Source: Psychrobacter jeotgali (lineage in GTDB: Bacteria; Pseudomonadota; Gammaproteobacteria; Pseudomonadales; Moraxellaceae). Taken from it: 64,000 nt of DNA. Below the pieces are notes generated by a model. It saw only the letters and a program-made list of their open reading frames with translations, was not told where the DNA came from and did not search any database. The DNA is taken from positions 2,666,001 through 2,730,000 of the forward strand of contig NZ_CAJHAF010000001.1 in the NCBI RefSeq assembly GCF_904846315.1, given 5' to 3'. This document shows, in pieces, positions 3,070 to 13,730 of this stretch; position 1 is the first letter of the stretch, and every line of letters starts with the position of its first letter. The position numbers and the translations under genes are program-made.

Positions 3070-3537
3070 GGTATATCCCTTTATTTTATTAAGTTTAATT
3101 TAACGTTTATTTGATATTTTAAAATTAAAAGTTTGAAAATTAATATATTAGAACCAGCGATAGGCATTTATTATTATTTTTATAGTGAGGTTTTTAGTTA
3201 TTATTTTGCCTATTTGCTAAGTAAAGAATAACGATATCAATGCTGTTAAAGTATAGGCTGCCCGTAATGCGATGTGAGAGTTTGTAAAAAGCACAAGGAT
3301 TAAGTAAAAAAAACGATGGTTTTGTGCCTTTTTAAAAGACCAGGTTTCGTGACTTTGACTAATGAGCGGTTTCTTCTATCCTAAATGCAGAGCCACCAAC
3401 ACTGCAATGATAAATTTATCACGCTTTATACCTGCTTATTATGGGGCTTCTTGTTATAATGCGCAGACCATTTATTTTGCATGGCAGTGATGCCTATCTT
3501 TGCCACTCCTTGCTTATATCCTAGGGAATATGTCTTT
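3070..3537. other. Gap upstream of purL
   Basis: AT-rich spacer between the divergent stress-protein gene and purL. I see no gene in it. It contains a probable extended -10 promoter for purL (3452-3460), listed separately. Confidence 0.6.
3452..3460 (+). promoter_or_regulatory. Extended -10 promoter element for purL
   Basis: TATAAT at 3455-3460 is preceded by TG one base upstream (3452-3453), an extended -10 arrangement. No good -35 hexamer sits 17 bp upstream. Transcription would start near 3467, which leaves a normal leader for a start codon at 3538 but almost none for the in-frame ATG at 3481. Confidence 0.5.
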
Positions 3538-6500
3538 ATGATGACTATCGCCGGACAGCCGTTTTTGACCGATTTTCAGACCCAGCAGCTTATCAATCAA
3601 TTTGCGCAGAAGACTGAGCTCAACGTGACTCAGATCAGTACCCAACAGGTCTATGTCTTATCACGTGAGCTTGTCGGTGATGAGCATAAAAAGGCGCTGG
3701 ATTTATTTGGCATTGATAATAATATTGAGTTGGTAACGCCCAAAGACGATCAAATTCAAATGATTGTTAGCCCGCGCTTTGGCACTATCTCACCTTGGGC
3801 GAGTAAAGCGACGGATATCTTTAATAATTGCGAGATTCAGATTCATCGCGTTGAGCGTGTCATTGTTTATACATTGACGATAGAGGGTGCGGTTCAGGAG
3901 ACACTGCCAACAGCGGCGGAGCGTTTATTGTTTGATCGTATGACCCAAAGCTTGGTTTATGATTTAGCAAAGGTTAGTAAATTGTTCGATGATGAACCGC
4001 CAGCAGGGCTCAATCATATCGATGTAATGGGTGCAGGAAGAGAAGCGTTAGAATCTGCCAATATCGAATTTGGTTTTGCCTTATCGAGCGAAGATATCGA
4101 CTATCTGATAAATGCTTACGTCAATGATTTGCAGCGCAATCCAACCGACGTTGAGCTGATGATGTTTGCGCAGGCCAACTCTGAGCATTGCCGTCATAAA
4201 ATCTTTAATGCTCAGTGGACGGTCGATGGCAAAGTGCAGCCCAAGTCTCTGTTTCAGATGATTAAGAATACTTATCAAGCCAATCCGCAAGGCATCTTAT
4301 CCGCTTATAAAGATAATGCGGCGGTCAGAACGGGCTCAGAAGGTCAGCGTTATTATCCGATTCCTGTTGCTAATGGTGAGGACCCTCAAGATGCCAATTC
4401 AGCTCATATTTATGACTTTCATCAACAAGCTATCGACATTTTAATGAAAGTCGAAACCCATAACCATCCCACGGCGATTGCCCCTTATGCGGGCGCGGCA
4501 ACGGGGGCGGGCGGTGAGATTCGTGACGAAGGCGCAACCGGTCGTGGCGGTAAGCCAAAAGCAGGTTTGACTGGCTTTCATGTCTCGCACTTACATATTC
4601 CTGAAATGCCGGAGAAATGGGAGCAGTCAGGACAAGTCAGCACCCAAGATTACGGTACGCCGGAGCGTATGGCGACCAGCTTGGAGATTATGACCGAAGC
4701 CCCATTAGGTTCAGCTAATTTCTCTAACGAGTTTGGTCGTCCAAACTTGTGTGGTTATTTCCGTAGTTTTCAATTAGACACCTCAGCCGCCAAAGACGGT
4801 AGCGAGATGCGTGGCTATCATAAGCCCATCATGCTGGCGGGTGGTTACGGTAATATCAAACGCAACCTCATTGAGAAAAACCCGATTCGTGAAGGTGATT
4901 TACTTATCGTCCTTGGCGGCCCTGCGATGCAAATCGGTCTGGGCGGCGGCGCGGCGTCTTCGGTCGATAGCGGTTCGCTGGATGAAGGTTTAGACTTTGC
5001 TTCGGTACAGCGTGATAACGCCGAAATGGAGCGCCGCTGTCAAGAAGTCATTGACCGCTGCTGGGCGCTTGCCGGTAACGATATCGAAGTCAGCAACAAC
5101 AGTAAAGACGGTAACCCTATCGTCTCTATCCACGATGTCGGTGCAGGCGGTCTGTCCAATGCGATGCCAGAATTGGTTGACGACCATGATATGGGCGCGC
5201 ACTTAAATCTGCGTAAAATCCCATCATTAGAGGCGGGCATGTCACCAATGGCGATTTGGTCAAATGAGGCGCAGGAGCGTTATGTCCTCGCAATTCGCCC
5301 TGAAAGTAAAGATCAGTTCGATGCCATCTGTGCACGCGAGCGTTGTCCGTATGCCATTTTGGGCAGCGCCACGGAAGTCCGTCAGCTGGTGGTCGATGAT
5401 GATTTATTAGACGCGCAGCCTGTCGATATGCCGATGCAAGTATTATTGGGTGGGACGCCGCAAATGCAGCGTAGTTTTGAGCGTCAAGCAAACGAGCTGG
5501 CTCCCTTAGTGTTGAATGACTTTGATTTAACCGAGTCAGTTAAAGACGTGCTGCGTCATCCTACCGTTGCCAGCAAATCATTCCTGATTAGTATTGGTGA
5601 CCGCTCTATCACCGGTATGGTGGTGCGCGATCAGTATGTCGGGCGTTATCAAGTGCCGGTCGCTGACTGCGCCATTACCGCATCCGGCTTGCTCAATCTT
5701 GACGGTCAACCGATGACGGGTGAGGCGATGAGCATTGGCGAGCGTACGCCGGTGGCCTTGATTGATCCCAAAGCCTCAGCACGTTTGGCGGTCGGCGAAG
5801 CGATTACTAATATCGCTGGTGCGCGCATTGCCCAGTTATCAGACATCACCATGTCGGCGAACTGGATGGCAGCGTGCGGCAATGACATGGAAGATGCGGC
5901 GCTATTTGACGCCGTACACGCTATCGGTGAAGAGTTATGTCCAGCACTTGGCATCGCTATTCCTGTTGGTAAAGACTCGCTATCGATGCGTGCTAATTGG
6001 ACAGACGACAATGCTGAGCAGGACAACCAAGATAAATCCGTGGTCTCACCCATGAGTCTGGTAATCACTGCTTTTGCACCGGTTGTCAATGTCGCCAAAA
6101 CCTTAACACCAGAATTAATCAACGGTGATAGCGCTTTTTACCGGATTGACTTATCCAAAGGTAAACTGCGCCTTGGTGGCTCAATCCTTGCGCAAACGGC
6201 AAGCCAACTCGGTAACCAATGCCCCGACCTTGATAAACCTAGCGATCTAGTCGACTTCTTTAACTTTATCCAAGCCGGTAACGAACAAGGCGTTGTCGCT
6301 GCCTATCACGATATCGGTGATGGCGGGCTGCTAGCGACTATCGCTGAGATGCAATTCACCAGCCGTCAAGGTATCAAGCTGTCACTGGCTGATGACAACT
6401 TGCTTGGTCAGCTGTTCAGCGAAGAGCTGGGCGCAGTCATCCAAGTCTTGCCCGAAAACGTCGCTAAGTTAATCGAGCTGGCAGACGAATATAACGTCAG

Positions 6501-7551
6501 CGATATGCTGAGTCTCGTCGGTCAAAGCACGGAAGAGGACAGTCTTATCATCCAAACGCCTTTGCATCAAGGCGAGGATACTCTGCGCTTTAGCCGTAGC
6601 GAGCTGCAACAAGAGTGGAGTCAGGTCAGCTATCAAATCGCCCGCCGCCGTGACAATCCGGCCTGCGTGCAGCAAGAGTATGATTTAATCAGCGATAGCA
6701 CTCATAAAGGCCTCATCGCTGCGCCAAACTTTGACCTCAATCAAAAGGTTGAAGCGCCGTACTTAAACAGCCGCGACACAAAGCCTAAAGTTGCTATACT
6801 CCGTGAGCAAGGGGTCAACGGTCAGACCGAGATGGCAGCTGGCTTTACTCAAGCGGGTTTTGAGGCACTTGATGTACATATGAGTGATTTGCTTGAGGGT
6901 CGTATTGATTTGCGCGACTTTGAAGGCCTTGTTGCTTGTGGCGGCTTTAGCTACGGCGACGTACTCGGCGCAGGATCGGGCTGGGCAAATTCCATCTTGT
7001 TCCATGACGAGCTGCGCATGCAGTTTGTACGCTTCTTTGCCCGTCCCAATACGTTTTCCTTGGGTGTCTGTAACGGCTGTCAGATGATGGCGCAATTGAA
7101 AGACCTCATCCCCGGTGCAGAAAACTTCCCTCGCTTCATCGCCAATCAGTCGGCACGCTTTGAAGCCCGTACCGTCAACGTCAAGGTCGAGCGTACCAAA
7201 TCCATCCTGTTTAAAGGCATGCAAGACAGCATCCTACCCATTGCCGTTGCCCACGGTGAAGGTTATGCCACGCTCAACGCGATAGAAATAGACGGTATGG
7301 AAAAACACGGTCAGCTCGCCATGCGCTACGTCGATAGCCAAGGTCATCCGACCGAGACTTATCCATTGAATCCTAACGGTTCGGTAGGTGGCGTCACCGG
7401 ACTGTGTAGCACCGACGGCCGCGTCACTATCATGATGCCGCACCCTGAGCGTAACCTGCGTGCATACAATCACAGCTGGAAACCCGAGCAGTGGGATGAG
7501 GACGGCGCGTGGATGCGGATGTTCCGTAATGCAAGGGCTTGGCTAAGATAG
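3538..7551 (+). CDS. purL: Phosphoribosylformylglycinamidine synthase
   Basis: PurL (FGAM synthase) performs the fourth step of purine synthesis, converting FGAR, glutamine and ATP into FGAM. This is the large single-chain gamma-proteobacterial form: an N-terminal PurS-like part, two AIRS-like synthase domains (with KVETHNHPTAIAP and GGEIRDEGATGRG near residues 300-340), and a C-terminal class I glutaminase whose nucleophile is the Cys in LGVCNGCQMM at about residue 1178. It ends with MMPHPERN. The frame extends back to an ATG at 3481. I chose 3538 because AGGGA lies 10 bases upstream and because the 19 extra residues (MAVMPIFATPCLY...) are unlike the family; the ATG at 3541 is also possible. 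The result is 1337 residues against about 1295 in E. coli. Confidence 0.95.
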   Translation: MMTIAGQPFLTDFQTQQLINQFAQKTELNVTQISTQQVYVLSRELVGDEHKKALDLFGIDNNIELVTPKDDQIQMIVSPRFGTISPWASKATDIFNNCEIQIHRVERVIVYTLTIEGAVQETLPTAAERLLFDRMTQSLVYDLAKVSKLFDDEPPAGLNHIDVMGAGREALESANIEFGFALSSEDIDYLINAYVNDLQRNPTDVELMMFAQANSEHCRHKIFNAQWTVDGKVQPKSLFQMIKNTYQANPQGILSAYKDNAAVRTGSEGQRYYPIPVANGEDPQDANSAHIYDFHQQAIDILMKVETHNHPTAIAPYAGAATGAGGEIRDEGATGRGGKPKAGLTGFHVSHLHIPEMPEKWEQSGQVSTQDYGTPERMATSLEIMTEAPLGSANFSNEFGRPNLCGYFRSFQLDTSAAKDGSEMRGYHKPIMLAGGYGNIKRNLIEKNPIREGDLLIVLGGPAMQIGLGGGAASSVDSGSLDEGLDFASVQRDNAEMERRCQEVIDRCWALAGNDIEVSNNSKDGNPIVSIHDVGAGGLSNAMPELVDDHDMGAHLNLRKIPSLEAGMSPMAIWSNEAQERYVLAIRPESKDQFDAICARERCPYAILGSATEVRQLVVDDDLLDAQPVDMPMQVLLGGTPQMQRSFERQANELAPLVLNDFDLTESVKDVLRHPTVASKSFLISIGDRSITGMVVRDQYVGRYQVPVADCAITASGLLNLDGQPMTGEAMSIGERTPVALIDPKASARLAVGEAITNIAGARIAQLSDITMSANWMAACGNDMEDAALFDAVHAIGEELCPALGIAIPVGKDSLSMRANWTDDNAEQDNQDKSVVSPMSLVITAFAPVVNVAKTLTPELINGDSAFYRIDLSKGKLRLGGSILAQTASQLGNQCPDLDKPSDLVDFFNFIQAGNEQGVVAAYHDIGDGGLLATIAEMQFTSRQGIKLSLADDNLLGQLFSEELGAVIQVLPENVAKLIELADEYNVSDMLSLVGQSTEEDSLIIQTPLHQGEDTLRFSRSELQQEWSQVSYQIARRRDNPACVQQEYDLISDSTHKGLIAAPNFDLNQKVEAPYLNSRDTKPKVAILREQGVNGQTEMAAGFTQAGFEALDVHMSDLLEGRIDLRDFEGLVACGGFSYGDVLGAGSGWANSILFHDELRMQFVRFFARPNTFSLGVCNGCQMMAQLKDLIPGAENFPRFIANQSARFEARTVNVKVERTKSILFKGMQDSILPIAVAHGEGYATLNAIEIDGMEKHGQLAMRYVDSQGHPTETYPLNPNGSVGGVTGLCSTDGRVTIMMPHPERNLRAYNHSWKPEQWDEDGAWMRMFRNARAWLR

Positions 7552-7588
7552 GCTAAGCTAAGCTTGTTTAAATCATTATTTTGGACAT

Positions 7589-7621
7589 AAAAAAAGGTGG
7601 GCTTCGGCTCACCTTTTTTTG
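7589..7621 (+). terminator. Terminator of purL
   Basis: An 8-bp stem (AGGTGGGC / GCTCACCT, one G-T pair) closed by a TTCG tetraloop is followed by seven or more T. The A-run before it could also allow termination from the other strand. Confidence 0.9.
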
Positions 7622-7678
7622 TTTGGGGTTTTCAAGATAGCGAGAATATTGACTTAACTTTGACATCAAGTGATGTGG

Positions 7679-7710
7679 CGTAGGTTGGCGTGGAGCTTGC
7701 GACACCCAAC
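7679..7710. repeat. REP-like hairpin, copy 1
   Basis: This 32-base element begins CGTAGGTTGG and ends GCGACACCCAAC; its ends can pair (GTTGG against CCAAC). It matches, with one extra base and a few changes, the two elements that bracket the broken RAYT transposase gene 31 kb away (38356-38386 and, inverted, 38955-38985). It sits just upstream of the toxin-antitoxin operator. Confidence 0.75.
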
Positions 7711-7734
7711 GTTTTATTAAAGATACTATTAGCC

Positions 7735-7755
7735 ATATACTTCAATGGAGTATAT
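7735..7755 (+). promoter_or_regulatory. Palindromic operator of the toxin-antitoxin operon
   Basis: ATATACT (7735-7741) and AGTATAT (7749-7755) form a perfect 7-bp inverted repeat with a 7-base spacer, 28 bases before the toxin start. Its place and symmetry fit a dimeric HTH antitoxin repressing its own operon. This is inference from position. Confidence 0.6.
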
Positions 7756-7783
7756 AATAAGAAATACCTAAAAAGGATTTTAG

Positions 7784-8116
7784 ATGCTACATTTCATAGA
7801 AACCCCGTTATTTACCAAGCAAGTGCTTAAATTGTTAGACGATGATAGCTATAAAGAGCTACAAGTAAATTTAATTAATAATCCAGACCAAGGGGATTTA
7901 ATTCAGGGTACGGGCGGTGTTAGAAAAACCAGATGGGCGCTGAATCAAGGTAAAAGCGGTGGCGTACGTATCATCTATTATTTTGTTGATAGTCACGGCG
8001 TATTTTTTATGTTGCTTGCCTATCCAAAAAACAAAAAAGTTAGCTTATCAAATCAAGAAAAGTCTAGCTTGTATAAGCTAACCCAACAAATCAAAGAGGT
8101 CTATAACCATGAATAA
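7784..8116 (+). CDS. Type II toxin, RelE/ParE superfamily (COG4737-like)
   Basis: This 110-residue protein has the sequence layout of the RelE-like toxins paired with NadS-type antitoxins. FIETPLFTKQV opens the fold, NPDQGDLIQGTGGVRKTRWA is the conserved core, then KSGGVRIIYYF and a basic LLAYPKNKKVSLS strand near the active-site face. Such toxins are usually ribosome-dependent mRNA endonucleases, though activity of this subgroup is less well studied. The start has AAAAAGG 7 bases upstream. The toxin comes first and overlaps the antitoxin by 8 bases, the reverse order to relBE but normal for higBA-type pairs. The operon lies next to the NACHT gene in an accessory patch. Confidence 0.85.
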   Translation: MLHFIETPLFTKQVLKLLDDDSYKELQVNLINNPDQGDLIQGTGGVRKTRWALNQGKSGGVRIIYYFVDSHGVFFMLLAYPKNKKVSLSNQEKSSLYKLTQQIKEVYNHE

Positions 8117-8390
8117 TGAATTTTACGATGACCTATCTATGTCACTAAATCAAGCATTAGCAATAGCCAAAGGAGAGACTGAGCCCAGCCGCAAGTTTAG
8201 TCATGAGATGCCTGATATCAAATCAATTCGAGCCAAAACTGGACTGTCACAACAGCAGTTTGCTGATAAGCTTAATATTAGCCCGCGTACCTTACAAAAC
8301 TGGGAACAAGGTACTAGAAATCCAACAGGAGCGGCGATTACGCTTATGCGATTGTTAGATAAGCAGCCTGACTTGATTGCTGAAGCTTGA
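8109..8390 (+). CDS. HTH antitoxin (NadS/HigA-like) of the toxin-antitoxin pair
   Basis: This is a 93-residue protein with a Cro/C1-type helix-turn-helix at about residues 36-85: IKSIRAKTGLSQQQFADKLN, then the recognition helix region SPRTLQNWEQGTRNPTGAA. It should neutralise the toxin encoded just upstream and repress the shared promoter. The first 30 residues (acidic, DLSMSLNQALAIAKGE) fit the toxin-wrapping segment of NadS-type antitoxins. The ATG lies inside the last codons of the toxin gene (8-base overlap), which implies translational coupling. Confidence 0.87.
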   Translation: MNNEFYDDLSMSLNQALAIAKGETEPSRKFSHEMPDIKSIRAKTGLSQQQFADKLNISPRTLQNWEQGTRNPTGAAITLMRLLDKQPDLIAEA

Positions 8391-8724
8391 TGTTTTATGG
8401 GAGCTAATCCTGAGAAGCGTTAAAAAATTGCACTGCAATTTTAGCTTCGCAAGTGAAAGTTCCTTGAATGGAATTTTCTGTTCCGCTTGTATCTACCAGT
8501 CTGGGCAAGGCGCTGGCTAAGGGAGAGGCGTTCCAACATTCGAGCGATCACCTCTAGCCAAGCCCCCGCAGCCCAATTACCAACCAAGGATATCCGCTGC
8601 AATCAGGGCTAGCGGTGATATCGTGTTCTTGCTACCATCAACTATAATGTTAACTTAAGATGAAAAAATCCTTTCTCTCATACGAAAGTATAAACTTCTA
8701 ATCTAAATCGTAGTGATTATAAGA
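8391..8724. other. Gap with repeat remnant upstream of the NACHT gene
   Basis: The left part (8409-8452) is a copy of the MITE core seen at 17085-17128. The segment 8490-8620 is clearly richer in GC than its surroundings and carries a short open frame on the minus strand (about 52 codons, no start needed, product unrecognised), which suggests a relic of a mobile or repeated sequence. A TATAAT at 8643-8648 could be the -10 of the NACHT gene, but no -35 partner is evident. Confidence 0.55.
8409..8452. repeat. Partial copy of the MITE core
   Basis: These 44 bases match 17085-17128 at 41 positions. The shared part includes TTGCACTGCAATTTTAG. As in the other copy, a short imperfect palindrome follows (GAAAGTTCC ... 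GGAATTTTC). The terminal inverted repeats of the complete copy are not found here, so this one is truncated or diverged. Confidence 0.75.
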
Positions 8725-11700
8725 ATGTCGAAACAGAAAAATACGGCTGGCGGTAGTGCCACTGAAAGAGGAATTGATTTTCAGGCTCGCGTAAGTGCTA
8801 TCGTACTTACTTGCCTGATTACTGAGCAACCTCTGAGTTGGATTGAAGATAATTCCACTATTATACCTATTAATTGCCAAGCGGAGACTGGTGGTTCTGG
8901 CGATGATATCGCCTTTACAAGTTCCAATGGAAAATGCTTTGAAATTCAAGTTAAAAGAGGATTTAGAAAGGGAGATGACTTATGGGATGCTTTAATAAAA
9001 CTTGCCAAAGCAATTGTTTCAAATGACATTGATTATGGGGTTTTAGTTGTCTGTCCTGATTCATCTGGAACGATAAGGAAAGACTTAGCTCAAGATATTA
9101 TTAGGATGGGTCAGGGTAGATTTGACGGAATTAAAGATATATCAGTTGAGTTTAAGGGTAAACTGGAAGATCAAGGACTTAATGTTTTGAGAGTCTGTTC
9201 TTCACTATATATACAAACTGTAAATGCGGTTGAAGGAAACAATGACGCTGAATCTCTTGCAAAGAATATGTTAGAGCGTGTGTCAGATGATACTGAAAAG
9301 GCGTGGAAAATTCTAGTCGAGAACTCTAGAAGAATAATAAAAATTAAAGGAAACCTAACACTTCAAAGTTGTAATGAGCTTTTTAAAAATAATGGTATAA
9401 CTGTAAAATCAGGAAATAAAACAAATATTCAGCTATTTAATAAAGCTTACCAATACAATAAAAATGCTTATTCTGCAATATCAATTCTGAGTGTACCAAA
9501 ACCTATCGACCTACAAAGTATATGGATTCCTTTAGAAGCAGCTATTGTTAGTGATGAAGAGAATGAAGATTTAAACTTAGACTCAACTGTCGAACGGTAT
9601 CAAAACTGGTATAAAGAAAAACGTCATTATGACACTATCATTGACTCCTTCACCTTTGGAAGATTTATAAAAAAGTGTGTTGTCATAGGTGGCGCTGGTA
9701 TAGGAAAAACAACGCTACTCCGTAAACTAGCTTTAGATTATAGTGACAAAGGATATTTTGTTCTATTCGTTAAATTGTCAAAACTAACGGATATTCTATC
9801 AGATAGTAGCAAAGGTTTCGAAGAATGCTTGCTAGATTGTGCGTTCGATAGAACGATTCAAACTAATAATACTAGTTCCTTATTAAAAAATGCAGTGATA
9901 TTAGCTGATGGCTTAGATGAATGTTTTCAAAACCAACCAAAGATAATTGAATACTTTGCAAAATTGGCGAAAGACTATCCTGAATCACGAATCTTGATAT
10001 CAACTCGTCCAATAGGCTATAAGCTAGGTTTAATAAGTGATTGGCGACGTTACGAACTCAATCCCATTGACGATGACGAATTTAAAAATGCAGTAAAGCA
10101 ACTCACTTCGGTTATTTCTCCAGAGGTACAAATCGACGAAGCTGTTTTAGAGCAAATAGAAACCGCCAAAATCAGTGATCTAGTTAAGAGAAACCCACTA
10201 ATTTTGAGTCTGGTTGTTGTTCTCGTAAAAAAAGGAGTAGAGGCAAATACTAACTATGCATCATTGTATAGGCAATTATTTTCTTTAATTGAAAGAGAGA
10301 GTTCTAGTAGAGAGGTATCAATAGAGCTATCGAAAATTCAATTACAAGAATTTTTGTATTTGTTAGGATGGATAATATTAAGAAACGGATATAAGCCCCT
10401 AAAGGAATTAGTGATTCTATGTTACGAAGAGTGGAAGGAAGAGCTACAACTTTCAAGATTTCAAGCAATCGAACTAATAGAAGATTGTATTAAATATTGG
10501 GTAGCTAAAGGAATTATTGAGAAGGTTAATGACCTAACAGATGAGACTGTCTTATTTATACACAAGACTCTAGGAGAATATGCGGCAGCTGAATTTCTAA
10601 AGAATCAAAATATTAGTATTAAACAACAGTTTATTTTAGAAGCTTTTTCGAACTCACAATATAGTGAAACTTTAACTTTTCTTAGCCACTTAGGCCTAAG
10701 CTCTAAGATTTTAGCATTATGGAATGAGAAATACTCTGCTGATAATAAGCCAAAAAATATCAATATATACGATTTTATACTGCACGCAGGTATTGACTAT
10801 AATTCAGGTGAAATAGAAAGCTTTATAAGTTTATGTTGGGAAATAACAGAGGATTCCTTTTCTACAAATCGTTATGTAAGCGGAGCAATTTTATGTCATA
10901 TTGCTAAAAATACATGGAGTAGAATTAAACCTAGTGTTGAAGAAAGGCTTAATTCTATTGACGACTGGGTTTCATTTACTGCACTAAATTGTGAACTGAT
11001 TAATAAAAGAGAGATAACTTCGAATTATATTGATATCTGCATTAGAAGAATAGAAAATAATTTTAATCCTATTAAGGTTGATAGGCTGCTTAAAAGTGGA
11101 AACAATATAAAGATAGAAATAAAGAATAACTTTATAAAATTGTTGCTGACTAAGTCGTTGCAAGGAAAAAATAAAAAAGTTTTAGAAACTATTGAAAATT
11201 ATATTAGAAACGAGAGTAGTAGTTTTAGTATAGGTCTAATATCAGACATTATAAAGGAATACTCTAAACACGAAAAGTCAATACCCAGCTATAGTTTTCT
11301 AGAAAGTAGCTTGTTTTCTAAAATGATGAAAAAAGAAATAGCTCCAGTTGTTCATGTTTTTAATAGTGAAGATTTTGAAAAGAATGAAAAAATTAAAATT
11401 AAAAACTTCTTTAAAGCTTTCATTGGTACAAAGAGTAGACTCGATAATGAAATTTTAGAGTTTAAAGATATGATAGAGTTAAGTGCTTTGATTAGGTTGT
11501 CTAGCATAATGGAGATGTATGTACAGGACTTTAAAGTATTTTACTCTAACGTTGTAGAAAATGATGATAGAACATTCATTTTTTTATCAATAGCTAGACT
11601 GAATGACTTAAATTATGAAAGTGTACTGAACCAAGCAAGTTCAGTAGTTAATGAGATTGAAAAAATACCAGATGATGAATCTTTCATGTACCCAATAAAT

Positions 11701-12645
11701 AATTTACCTCGGGTAGATATTGAGTTCGAAGTAATAAATCCATTAAATGTACAGTTATTGACTCGTATTAAACAACTTATTTTAACTAATGAAAGGTTCT
11801 TTATAGCGAATGCTTGCCGTCTGTTCTTATCATATCCTAAATCAGAAAGCTTTGAGACATACTCAGAACTCATAAAATATGGAGAAGGTCTATCGCTTTT
11901 ATATGTAGGCGCTATGAATGAGCATTATCAGGGTTTAGATAATGATGACACGATTCAAAAAGTAGTTGTAGAAAAGTTGTTGAGCAATAATTTAGTAAGT
12001 GGCTGTGAGCATTTATACCAATATGTTAGAGAACCATATAACGAGCGCCACATTCAAATAATTGAAAAAGGTCTTAATTCAATAAGTCCTATTGTCGCAA
12101 TTGAAGCAACAAAACTACTTGATAGAATGTCACCTAATTTAATAAGCCTAGATAAGGTGAAAGATTTTTATTTATTATGGCAAGATAAAGAGGAGCCATA
12201 TCCAGTCAAAGGTGGAACTGTTCCACATACGCCAAGAGAAAGTTTAGCGAAAATACTAATTGAACATCATTATCATGATGAAAGTTTTATACAACAAATG
12301 ATTTTAGATACTAGACCCAATATTAGGAAGCAAGCGACACAACCTTTCGTTGATTATTGTAAGGATTCAAGCCAGTTAAGACACTGGCTTATAGATAAAA
12401 TTAAAAGCGAAGAGGTAGAAGCAGATTTATTAAAGAAATGTATTGCTGAAGACGTTTTTTTGAAGGATAGCTATCTTGTCTTAGAGCTATTAAACAGTGA
12501 AAGTATTGATATTAGGGAAAGTGCTTTAAAAATATTAGACGCAAAATATTTTCCTGAAATAGAGATAAAAGCTCATGCAAAAAAGCTATTAAATGATGAA
12601 GTGATAGAAATTAGACAATCTGCTAAAAAAATATTAGACACATAG
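8725..12645 (+). CDS. NACHT-type STAND ATPase with N-terminal Cap4-like nuclease domain and HEAT-like C-terminus (candidate anti-phage protein)
   Basis: This is a 1306-residue protein with three visible parts. (1) Residues ~10-170 look like a PD-(D/E)xK nuclease of the Cap4/DUF4297 sort: SATERGIDFQ, then GDDI (~residues 59-62) and EIQVK (~73-77). (2) Residues ~315-640 are a NACHT ATPase: Walker A GGAGIGKTT (~322), Walker B VILADGLDE (~391), sensor ISTRP (~425), and the NACHT winged-helix motif FIHKTLGEYAAAEFL (~611). (3) The C-terminal ~600 residues are helical and end in HEAT-like repeats (IVAIEATKLLD, IDIRESALKILD, IEIRQSAKKILD). Avs and bNACHT defence proteins share this plan: a C-terminal sensor triggers oligomerisation and the N-terminal effector cuts DNA. 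That role is inferred. The gene is much more AT-rich than its neighbours. An in-frame GTG at 8713 is an alternative start; neither has a good ribosome binding site. Confidence 0.82.
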   Translation: MSKQKNTAGGSATERGIDFQARVSAIVLTCLITEQPLSWIEDNSTIIPINCQAETGGSGDDIAFTSSNGKCFEIQVKRGFRKGDDLWDALIKLAKAIVSNDIDYGVLVVCPDSSGTIRKDLAQDIIRMGQGRFDGIKDISVEFKGKLEDQGLNVLRVCSSLYIQTVNAVEGNNDAESLAKNMLERVSDDTEKAWKILVENSRRIIKIKGNLTLQSCNELFKNNGITVKSGNKTNIQLFNKAYQYNKNAYSAISILSVPKPIDLQSIWIPLEAAIVSDEENEDLNLDSTVERYQNWYKEKRHYDTIIDSFTFGRFIKKCVVIGGAGIGKTTLLRKLALDYSDKGYFVLFVKLSKLTDILSDSSKGFEECLLDCAFDRTIQTNNTSSLLKNAVILADGLDECFQNQPKIIEYFAKLAKDYPESRILISTRPIGYKLGLISDWRRYELNPIDDDEFKNAVKQLTSVISPEVQIDEAVLEQIETAKISDLVKRNPLILSLVVVLVKKGVEANTNYASLYRQLFSLIERESSSREVSIELSKIQLQEFLYLLGWIILRNGYKPLKELVILCYEEWKEELQLSRFQAIELIEDCIKYWVAKGIIEKVNDLTDETVLFIHKTLGEYAAAEFLKNQNISIKQQFILEAFSNSQYSETLTFLSHLGLSSKILALWNEKYSADNKPKNINIYDFILHAGIDYNSGEIESFISLCWEITEDSFSTNRYVSGAILCHIAKNTWSRIKPSVEERLNSIDDWVSFTALNCELINKREITSNYIDICIRRIENNFNPIKVDRLLKSGNNIKIEIKNNFIKLLLTKSLQGKNKKVLETIENYIRNESSSFSIGLISDIIKEYSKHEKSIPSYSFLESSLFSKMMKKEIAPVVHVFNSEDFEKNEKIKIKNFFKAFIGTKSRLDNEILEFKDMIELSALIRLSSIMEMYVQDFKVFYSNVVENDDRTFIFLSIARLNDLNYESVLNQASSVVNEIEKIPDDESFMYPINNLPRVDIEFEVINPLNVQLLTRIKQLILTNERFFIANACRLFLSYPKSESFETYSELIKYGEGLSLLYVGAMNEHYQGLDNDDTIQKVVVEKLLSNNLVSGCEHLYQYVREPYNERHIQIIEKGLNSISPIVAIEATKLLDRMSPNLISLDKVKDFYLLWQDKEEPYPVKGGTVPHTPRESLAKILIEHHYHDESFIQQMILDTRPNIRKQATQPFVDYCKDSSQLRHWLIDKIKSEEVEADLLKKCIAEDVFLKDSYLVLELLNSESIDIRESALKILDAKYFPEIEIKAHAKKLLNDEVIEIRQSAKKILDT

Positions 12646-12682
12646 TTATATTATTATTTGTGAAAAGGTACGTTTCACATAA

Positions 12683-12886
12683 CTACTCATCGTCTGAACC
12701 ATCTCGAGCCTTTTTTTGAGCCTCATCAATCAACTCCTTCACCCTAGCACTCTCTCTCAACACACAAGCCTCATATTCAGAAAGCGACTCAGCCTCCTGT
12801 TGCTGCTGACTTTCCTGCTCCTCTTTAGCCTTTTTTCTTAAATACTCTTCAAGTCTTTGTTGCTCATCTGATTGTGAATGACTCAT
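12683..12886 (-). CDS. Small charged hypothetical protein
   Basis: This 67-residue product is almost entirely hydrophilic, rich in Glu, Gln, Lys and Ser, with a helical, probably coiled-coil centre (QRLEEYLRKKAKEEQESQQQ) and a second amphipathic stretch (RVKELIDEAQKKAR). It has no signal peptide or membrane segment. I consider it real because AAGGAG sits 7 bases before the ATG and because it lies in line with the amidotransferase gene just upstream on the same strand (15-base gap). I recognise no family and propose no function. Confidence 0.6.
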   Translation of the reverse strand: MSHSQSDEQQRLEEYLRKKAKEEQESQQQQEAESLSEYEACVLRESARVKELIDEAQKKARDGSDDE

Positions 12887-12901
12887 GATTGACTCCTTAT
12901 A

Positions 12902-13654
12902 TTATTTATTTCCCGATGCTGCTATCCGACTGAGCATAGCGGCTAATCGTTCATTATTTTCTTCAATATATTTATCACCCAACGCTAATATTTCATCCGG
13001 CGATTGTACCGTTTCAGGATACTCTTTAAGACCATTTTGAATAGTGGCATTACCATTGGAGACCATTTTGGACAGGCTTTCTTTAGTCACTTCAAAGTGA
13101 CATTGCCAAGCCAATACCCAAGTGCCACGCCGTTTATGTTTTGCCGTCTGATAAATAAAGCCTTGATTTGCCCAAGCTTCCGTCTCTGCAATAATACTCG
13201 CGCCTTTTGGACAGTCAAAACCATCACCATGGAAGTGAAATACCATAAACGGCTGTTTGGGTAAGTCCTGTAATAAAGGATGCGCTTGTCCTGCTTGCGT
13301 CAGCCACATCGGCAACCAACCAATTTCTCTTACTCCAGAGGGCTTAACCTCAGCACCCAAACAATGGGCGACAAGCTGCGCACCTAAGCAAACTCCGATA
13401 ACAGTTTTGCCTGCATCGATACTTTGTTTAATGAGACGTTTTTCAGCGATTAACCACGTATGCTGGTCTTCATCATGGACGCTCATTGGCCCGCCCATGA
13501 CGATCAGCCAATCAAAGCTATCAAGCGCTGGCAATGAGTGGTTATCGTAAGAACGACTGACCGTAATAGGGTGGTTATGAGCGTTTGCCCACTGTTTGAT
13601 AAAGCTTAAATCCGCATAATCTGTGTGAAATAAAGCGTGAATACGTAGGGTCAT
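12902..13654 (-). CDS. Class I glutamine amidotransferase (GMP synthase-like)
   Basis: This 250-residue stand-alone class I amidotransferase domain has the nucleophilic elbow VIGVCLGAQLVA (Cys at ~residue 91) and the His/Glu pair in CHFEVTKES. Proteins of this kind release ammonia from glutamine or gamma-glutamyl compounds; without a partner synthase here the true substrate is unknown (gamma-glutamyl hydrolysis is possible). The frame extends upstream to a TTG at 13672, but the ATG at 13654 has GAGG 6 bases before it and starts MTLRIHALFHTDYAD, which fits the family. It is probably co-transcribed with the small gene downstream. Confidence 0.85.
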   Translation of the reverse strand: MTLRIHALFHTDYADLSFIKQWANAHNHPITVSRSYDNHSLPALDSFDWLIVMGGPMSVHDEDQHTWLIAEKRLIKQSIDAGKTVIGVCLGAQLVAHCLGAEVKPSGVREIGWLPMWLTQAGQAHPLLQDLPKQPFMVFHFHGDGFDCPKGASIIAETEAWANQGFIYQTAKHKRRGTWVLAWQCHFEVTKESLSKMVSNGNATIQNGLKEYPETVQSPDEILALGDKYIEENNERLAAMLSRIAASGNK

Positions 13655-13730
13655 GGGACACCTCATGAGCAAATATCGATTAGTAAATTAAATATAGTTT
13701 TGCGAAGGTTCTGAAAACTAAAGTCTAATA

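Follow-up and report, generated by a model that had tools for sequence, protein, structure and literature searches.

What does a long protein with a NACHT module do in Psychrobacter jeotgali, and what does the place of its gene tell about its role? The gene lies at positions 8725..12645 on the forward strand of the 64,000-nucleotide stretch of DNA analysed here, which we refer to as the window. We consider it probable, at roughly 0.78, that it encodes a stand-alone NLR-like abortive-infection protein, of which the C-terminal tail would sense infection, the NACHT module would oligomerise and the Cap4-type N-terminal heads would cut DNA. This interpretation was favoured because the head was modelled as PD-(D/E)XK-like, the central module showed an NLR fold, key residues proved invariant, defence genes were found in the same slot of other genomes and near relatives, and the tail evolves fast.

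The open frame (8713-12645, forward strand) is uninterrupted and, when read from the ATG at 8725, yields a single-gene NACHT (STAND) protein of 1306 residues. The motifs that a previous sequence-only reading of this DNA had quoted are indeed present, including GDDI at residues 59-62, EIQVK at 73-77, the Walker A sequence GGAGIGKTT at 322-330 and DGLDE at 395-399. The motif FIHKTLGEYAAAEFL at residues 611-625 (10555..10599, forward strand), which was aligned in all 16 rows covering this region, presumably corresponds, judging by its position, to the winged helix at which the NACHT module ends. When the protein was scanned with Pfam, NACHT (PF05729; residues 318-458, 9676..10098, forward strand) was the only family above its cut-off (37.9 vs 26.7 bits), HEAT (18.2 vs 23.5 bits) and nSTAND3 scoring below theirs. 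An AlphaFold2 model of residues 1-700, built from a 16-row alignment, reached a predicted local distance difference test score (pLDDT) of 86.1 and a predicted template modelling score (pTM) of 0.83. Foldseek matched this model first to NLRC4 (E 1.5e-13) and then to NLRP3 and NOD2; the 50 matches listed were NLR/STAND proteins or oocyte complexes, with Avs3 and Avs4 at ranks 43 and 45. The NACHT module claimed by the sequence-only reading is thereby confirmed, both by the Pfam score and by the NLR-type fold. As to the possibility that full-length orthologues already belong to a characterised defence family, no characterised full-length family model exceeded its cut-off in the NCBIfam, PADLOC and Pfam scans, and the bNACHT clades were compared with the protein by description only. 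The PADLOC scan (E<=0.1) returned PDC-M54A at the head and two weak others, while the window's own head matched none of the Pfam families at E<=10. Because Pfam was silent or below threshold in the head and the tail, the assignments of these two parts rest on structure models, profile comparison and conservation.

To collect relatives of the protein, a four-row alignment was run against genome contigs from 84,980 species, which gave 20 loci. The resulting family alignment of 17 rows consists of 14 of these loci, the window protein, the protein at locus L033 and a plasmid protein; L023, one of the loci, ends at a contig end. Left out were L019, which has the same start and end as L021, the fragments L027 and L030, and L028, L031 and L032, which have other architectures. 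Identity to the window protein was 19-34% across the aligned rows, except for one orthologue at 77%. Despite this distance, D60, D61, Q75 and K77 were invariant in all 17 rows, as was K328, the lysine of Walker A. The invariant columns also include G9, G10, Q20, E54 and G59 in the head and G323, G325, G327, D395, D398, R428 and P429 further on, and E73 was kept in 16 rows, being D in the plasmid row only. PF05729 was matched at E<=0.01 in 16 of the 17 members, and every row carried a Walker A together with a DGLDE-type Walker B, with one DALDE and one DGLDD as variants. Compared with the orthologue at L012, in another Psychrobacter, the overall ratio of nonsynonymous to synonymous substitution rates (dN/dS) was 0.20, and the gene is thus under purifying selection. 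The head and NACHT motifs are more than chance resemblances, because such distant relatives keep the two aspartates, Q75, K77 and K328 and because dN/dS is this low.

The head comprises residues 1-165 (8725..9219, forward strand). Its modelled core consists of a helix (residues 12-33), three strands (48-53, 62-66 and 71-77), a second helix (84-98) and a further strand (104-109), which is the order of PD-(D/E)XK enzymes. The candidate metal-binding aspartates D60 and D61 (8902..8907, forward strand) precede strand 62-66, whereas E73 and the candidate catalytic residues Q75 and K77, all within EIQVK (8941..8955, forward strand), sit on strand 71-77. In order and spacing, D61, Q75 and K77 are similar to D45, Q58 and K60 of AbpA and to D50, E67 and K69 of Cap4; for AbpA, the available part of the published account reports that Q58A and K60A abolish defence (PMC10732053). 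When the heads of the family were pooled with those of PDC-M54A and compared by hhalign with nine Cap4 rows, the probability was 86 (E 5.4e-6), as opposed to 7 for Mrr, the sole rival PD-(D/E)XK family in this comparison, in which the Cap4 score varied with pooling and row number. Both QVK and the aspartate pair lined up in the pooled alignment, as they did in an alignment to four Cap4 rows, and control segments from the NACHT module and tail of the window protein scored below 1. Mrr itself was rejected as the family of the head, its hhalign scores being only 3-7. Sequence matches in the Protein Data Bank were likewise set aside as too weak to identify the head, as there were three rows at E 0.1-0.5, with AbpA 8zue at 0.5. 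We conclude that the head is probably a divergent Cap4-type nuclease outside PF14130 as Pfam defines it. The earlier claim of a Cap4-like head of the PD-(D/E)XK kind is supported by the modelled topology and favoured by the pooled profile comparison; the search for a nuclease fold at the N-terminus found the PD-(D/E)XK topology in the model, but no nuclease structure was matched to the head alone. A profile of the head matched six of 398 genomes. Two of the matches are members of the family and four are different long frames (1111-1675 residues); the head is therefore a shared module.

Two side observations concern such heads. At L028 (7962-11972), TPR repeats and a PIN-TPR-GreABC domain follow a related head, and the head may thus pair with other tails. 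A sub-threshold Cap4_nuclease match was also seen in a separate 422-residue frame of the genome that holds the window (G000:C1:852820-852990, locus L095).

The remainder of the protein, residues 690-1306 (10792..12642, forward strand), is a helical tail and the presumed sensor. A model of residues 560-1306 from 15 rows (pLDDT 80.8, pTM 0.64) was helical from residue ~614 onward, and its helix pairs form a solenoid with a period of ~33 residues at the C-terminus, as in HEAT repeats. The last two repeats are also visible in the DNA, as a 59-nt direct repeat with a spacing of 99 nt (33 codons) at 12485-12642. For the tail, the Foldseek matches were generic HEAT/ARM solenoids, PP2A A and karyopherins among them, and the template modelling scores were low. 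Model and matches together bear out the HEAT-like tail described in the sequence-only reading. A tail profile run against the 398 genomes found the family itself (three genomes) and two weak C-terminal matches. The models establish the order head, NACHT module, tail; the effector and sensor roles of the two ends are assigned by inference. Between two tail helices lies a conserved loop, EEPYPVKGGTVPHTPR (residues 1156-1171; 12190..12237, forward strand), of which the full form E(E/D/K)PYPxxGGxxPx(S/T)PR was present in 12 of the 16 covering rows and a recognisable form in 14, L022 and L024 being the ones that deviate.

Head, NACHT module and tail have not changed at the same pace. Identity to the L012 orthologue was 92% in the head, 85% in the NACHT module and 63-72% in the tail, and dN/dS was 0.14 in the head, 0.16 in the NACHT module, 0.09 in residues 480-680 and 0.26-0.31 in the tail. 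These rates come from a single orthologue pair, in which dS was uneven along the gene (0.29-1.22). They suggest that the tail is the fastest-evolving part, as would be expected of a sensor.

The setting of the gene also bears on its role, and what is new here is its place behind purL, in a slot whose content differs from one Psychrobacter genome to another. The left border is purL itself (3481..7551, forward strand), the 3′ end of which matched in all 30 genus genomes, including its own; synteny also marks it as the border. The right border is here formed by a small conserved gene and a GATase gene identified by Pfam (12683..13672, reverse strand), homologues of which lie to the right of the slot in many other loci. 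The names purL, amidase and MOSC are our own assignments, made by eye from the sequence. The interval was read in 20 of the 29 other genus genomes, as well as in L012, and the content between purL and the amidase-like gene (7552-12950 in the window; loci L060-L079) was found to differ. Known defence or restriction-type genes were present in six of the 20 slots, a raw count taken with no control interval: Hachiman HamA/HamB with an MBL gene in G091, PARIS AriA/AriB in G220, RmrA/RmrT in G128 and, by 70-92% identity, in G085 and G057, and Mrr_cat in G210. Another seven held HD-CE genes (G051 and, by similarity, G238, G148 and G130) or ResIII-helicase genes (G643 and, by similarity, G152 and G102), which are defence candidates only. 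The candidate frames in G148 and G152 are split, and the HD-CE protein had no PADLOC match at E<=1e-5.

Neighbourhoods of the relatives were examined at 15 loci, using 118 of 146 neighbouring open reading frames; the 28 others were omitted by eye, mostly as spurious-looking frames in GC-rich DNA. In five of the 15, defence genes were individually located within ~8 kb of the relative, namely Wadjet JetC/JetD at L016, BREX PglZ/BrxHI at L022, E1-E2/JAB at L005, a type IIG restriction-modification gene at L021 and a type I restriction-modification gene at L033. A tally over the 118 neighbour proteins as a whole lists further PADLOC families. The defence setting suggested by the sequence-only reading is thus upheld by the purL slot of other genomes and by the surroundings of the relatives.

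The nuclease activity, the oligomerisation, the trigger and the outcome we infer as follows. At rest, the HEAT-like tail would keep the NACHT module closed and bound to ADP. Upon infection, the tail would bind a protein specific to the infected state, most likely a conserved one from the phage, and the NACHT module would then swap its nucleotide and oligomerise. The clustered Cap4-type heads would cleave double-stranded DNA of phage and host alike, and the infection would end by cell death or arrest. Avs1-4 and bNACHT25 are described, in the portions of the reports available, as comparable single-gene STAND receptors that kill or arrest the infected cell by cleaving DNA (PMC12931631, PMC12169576).

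Several results weigh against this scheme. For the head alone, the hhalign probability was 45 against nine Cap4 rows, with Mrr at 3, and only 2 against four Cap4 rows, again with Mrr at 3; in the nine-row alignment, QVK was aligned and the aspartate pair was not. With HMMER, Cap4_nuclease was found in one of 16 heads, at E 0.23, and in none above the Pfam threshold, and no nuclease was named among the 50 Foldseek rows listed for residues 1-700. The faster evolution of the tail, being read from one pair with uneven dS, may also fit relaxed constraint. Nothing recognised as phage defence was found in seven of the 20 slots (G184, G099, G144, G174, G160, G202 and G008), the frames of which were partly scanned. 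Among these, G160 holds a toxin-antitoxin pair, the contig of G099 ends soon after and its 801-residue frame matched nothing, and G174 is near-empty, with 143 bases from the purL match to the small conserved gene. The slot counts are raw numbers from these 20 genomes. Finally, no defence gene was located in ten of the 15 neighbourhoods; single PADLOC scans covered ten of the 118 proteins from all neighbourhoods together.

Other explanations share parts of this evidence. The tail could act as a guard, monitoring a host protein or chaperone that is disturbed by the phage and then triggering the same DNase. Such a mechanism has been published for the PD-(D/E)XK-headed bNACHT25, which requires host DnaJ, and it would be in line with the conserved tail loop, which can be made out in 14 of 16 rows although the hosts are distant and could dock a conserved host partner; the tail of bNACHT25, however, is NCH1, a domain of a different name, according to the text available (PMC12169576). 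In addition, the tail is fast-evolving between two Psychrobacter, which fits a phage-facing surface somewhat better, and we regard guarding as rather unlikely. The loop also enters a tentative proposal of ours, according to which the proteins would form a distinct family of bacterial NLRs with a near-fixed loop (EEPYPxxGGxxPxSPR) in a fast-evolving HEAT solenoid. The loop would dock an invariant partner and the solenoid outside it would be adapted to local phages, in combination with a genus-wide slot for the exchange of defence genes after purL. The invariant partner may then belong to the host, or the loop may serve as a latch on the NACHT module of the same protein.

A type IV-like restriction, in which tail or head would recognise modified or damaged DNA and the ATPase would license cleavage, could draw on the PD-(D/E)XK-like head and on the restriction-modification genes near two relatives. 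Yet the NACHT module is of the NLR type rather than a translocase, the Pfam, PADLOC and NCBIfam scans of the window protein matched no DNA-binding domain, and HEAT-like solenoids mostly bind proteins; surveillance of DNA therefore appears improbable. Even less credit is due to the view that the protein has no part in immunity, being a STAND regulator or a leftover without a present role. Its rarity, low GC content and patchy distribution would agree with this, whereas the dN/dS of 0.20, the intact frame, the invariant catalytic residues and the defence genes in the same slot elsewhere argue against it.

How does the proposed abortive-infection protein relate to known systems? With bNACHT25 and bNACHT32 (clade 6) it shares the layout of an N-terminal PD-(D/E)XK DNase (predicted here), a central NACHT module and a C-terminal helical sensor (presumed here) in a single protein, but the tail is NCH1 there and a HEAT-like solenoid of ~620 residues here, as far as the description available allows the comparison (PMC12169576). 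The NACHT module with Walker A and DGLDE-type Walker B by which bNACHT proteins are defined is found in the window protein. Avs1-Avs4 are, in the part of the account available, likewise STAND nucleoside triphosphatases that combine nuclease effectors with a sensor at the C-terminus (PMC12931631), and Avs3 and Avs4 are among the Foldseek matches; no PADLOC Avs model, however, matched the window protein at E<=0.1. Some Avs proteins have TPR-type tails and a Cap4 head, and recognition of terminase, portal or Ksap1 is a mark of Avs1-4. PDC-M54A, a PADLOC candidate with model lengths of 1621 and 1657, matched residues 4-98 of the head at 3.3e-7, all 17 family members match this model, and a head-to-head hhalign comparison gave 99.4. 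In a PDC-M54A-type protein at L031 (285-5216, 1644 residues), weak matches to AAA and HEAT follow one another as they do here, and it may be a larger relative that shares the layout; it is longer, though, lacks a NACHT match at E<=0.01 and has 18% overall identity to the window protein.

The head has the signature G..(F/Y)Q...DD...QVK of the Cap4/AbpA nuclease domain (PF14130), with its D ... Q/E-x-K set, but stays below the Pfam threshold. It is fused here to NACHT and HEAT, in contrast to SAVED in Cap4 and a HamA domain in AbpA, as stated in the available text (PMC10732053). EruA (NCBIfam NF058535, a NACHT antiphage protein with a model length of 1318) matched residues 443-628 (E 8.7e-7), though with 27.4 bits against a cut-off of 1000 and with head and tail unmatched. 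In DSR2, the HEAT-repeat helical C-terminal half binds a phage protein and activates an N-terminal effector; that effector, however, is a Sir2 NADase, and a NACHT module is not mentioned in the part of the paper available (PMC11263360). Validated systems with PD-(D/E)XK and NACHT domains have been reported, one of which may belong to this family, judging from the portion available (PMC13092281). Among the listings and starts of abstracts, no title dealt with this family or with defence genes in a slot at purL.

Relatives of the gene are rare and scattered. By tblastn, two of 249 genomes of the taxonomic family matched (its own and G034), as did five of 398 across the phylum, two of these in the NACHT region only, and one Rhizobium plasmid carries a relative. 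Hosts include Psychrobacter (sp. Ps6), Pseudomonas salomonii, Propionivibrio, a zetaproteobacterium, Azospirillum, Thiocapsa, a Syntrophaceae metagenome-assembled genome and Archangium. Carriage of the gene by phages was considered and rejected, since none of 50,697 phage records matched by tblastn at E<=1e-5; the IMG/VR viral contigs gave one full-length relative and one further weak NACHT match. On the viral contig of L033, a second NACHT-like protein of 1192 residues (3752-7330) lies upstream of the family member. It scored 26.0 bits against the Pfam cut-off of 26.7 and had no PADLOC match; a Cap4-like head, GG..RYQ...DDF...QVK, may be present in it.

The unit that was exchanged appears to be small. 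By blastn, the window and L012 share 8481-8519 and 8587-12649 near the gene (82.7%), the match ending just past the stop codon; what they share is the gene and ~240 bp upstream only. The shared upstream stretch (8481..8724, forward strand) is possibly a promoter region; promoter-like sites were at chance level. A RelE-like toxin with a NadS-family antitoxin (7784..8390, forward strand), both recognised by family models, lies outside this unit: the pair was not found in L012, and L069 holds a similar pair with no NACHT gene. A single mobile islet of toxin-antitoxin and NACHT genes was rejected accordingly. Of the mobile islet that the sequence-only reading had drawn from low GC content and neighbours, the low GC content (0.321 for the gene vs 0.427 for the whole window), the toxin-antitoxin pair and the repeat are present, but the pair is no part of the exchanged unit, and no integrase or transposase was recognised beside the gene among the window's open reading frames, which were inspected and five of them scanned with Pfam. 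For the dispersed repeat of ~70 nt at ~8405-8481, the genome gave 11 more matches, some partial, with identities of 80-94%.

Insertion by an element that duplicates the end of purL was also discarded, as no second purL end was found in the 20 kb that surround the copy in the window. In other slots, extra purL 3′ ends, truncated ones, do occur, in two of 21 (G160 and G202), and such second ends lie at L069 6587-6769 and L071 1948-2090 in slot orientation; they may be recombination scars. As a side observation on the slots, the HD-CE proteins of L066, L070 and L077 are ~70% identical over the first ~560-600 residues, and beyond that point L070 and L077 had no reported match; the C-terminal part may have been swapped or be fast-evolving.

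The family may represent a new branch of the known bNACHT/NLR-like kind, for which an existing bNACHT clade label is possible. It would add a HEAT-tailed branch with a Cap4-like head to bacterial NLR-like immunity and defines candidate residues in it, and its head is common to PDC-M54A, so far a PADLOC candidate. For Psychrobacter, the interval from purL to the amidase-like gene offers a simple place to look for further defence genes.

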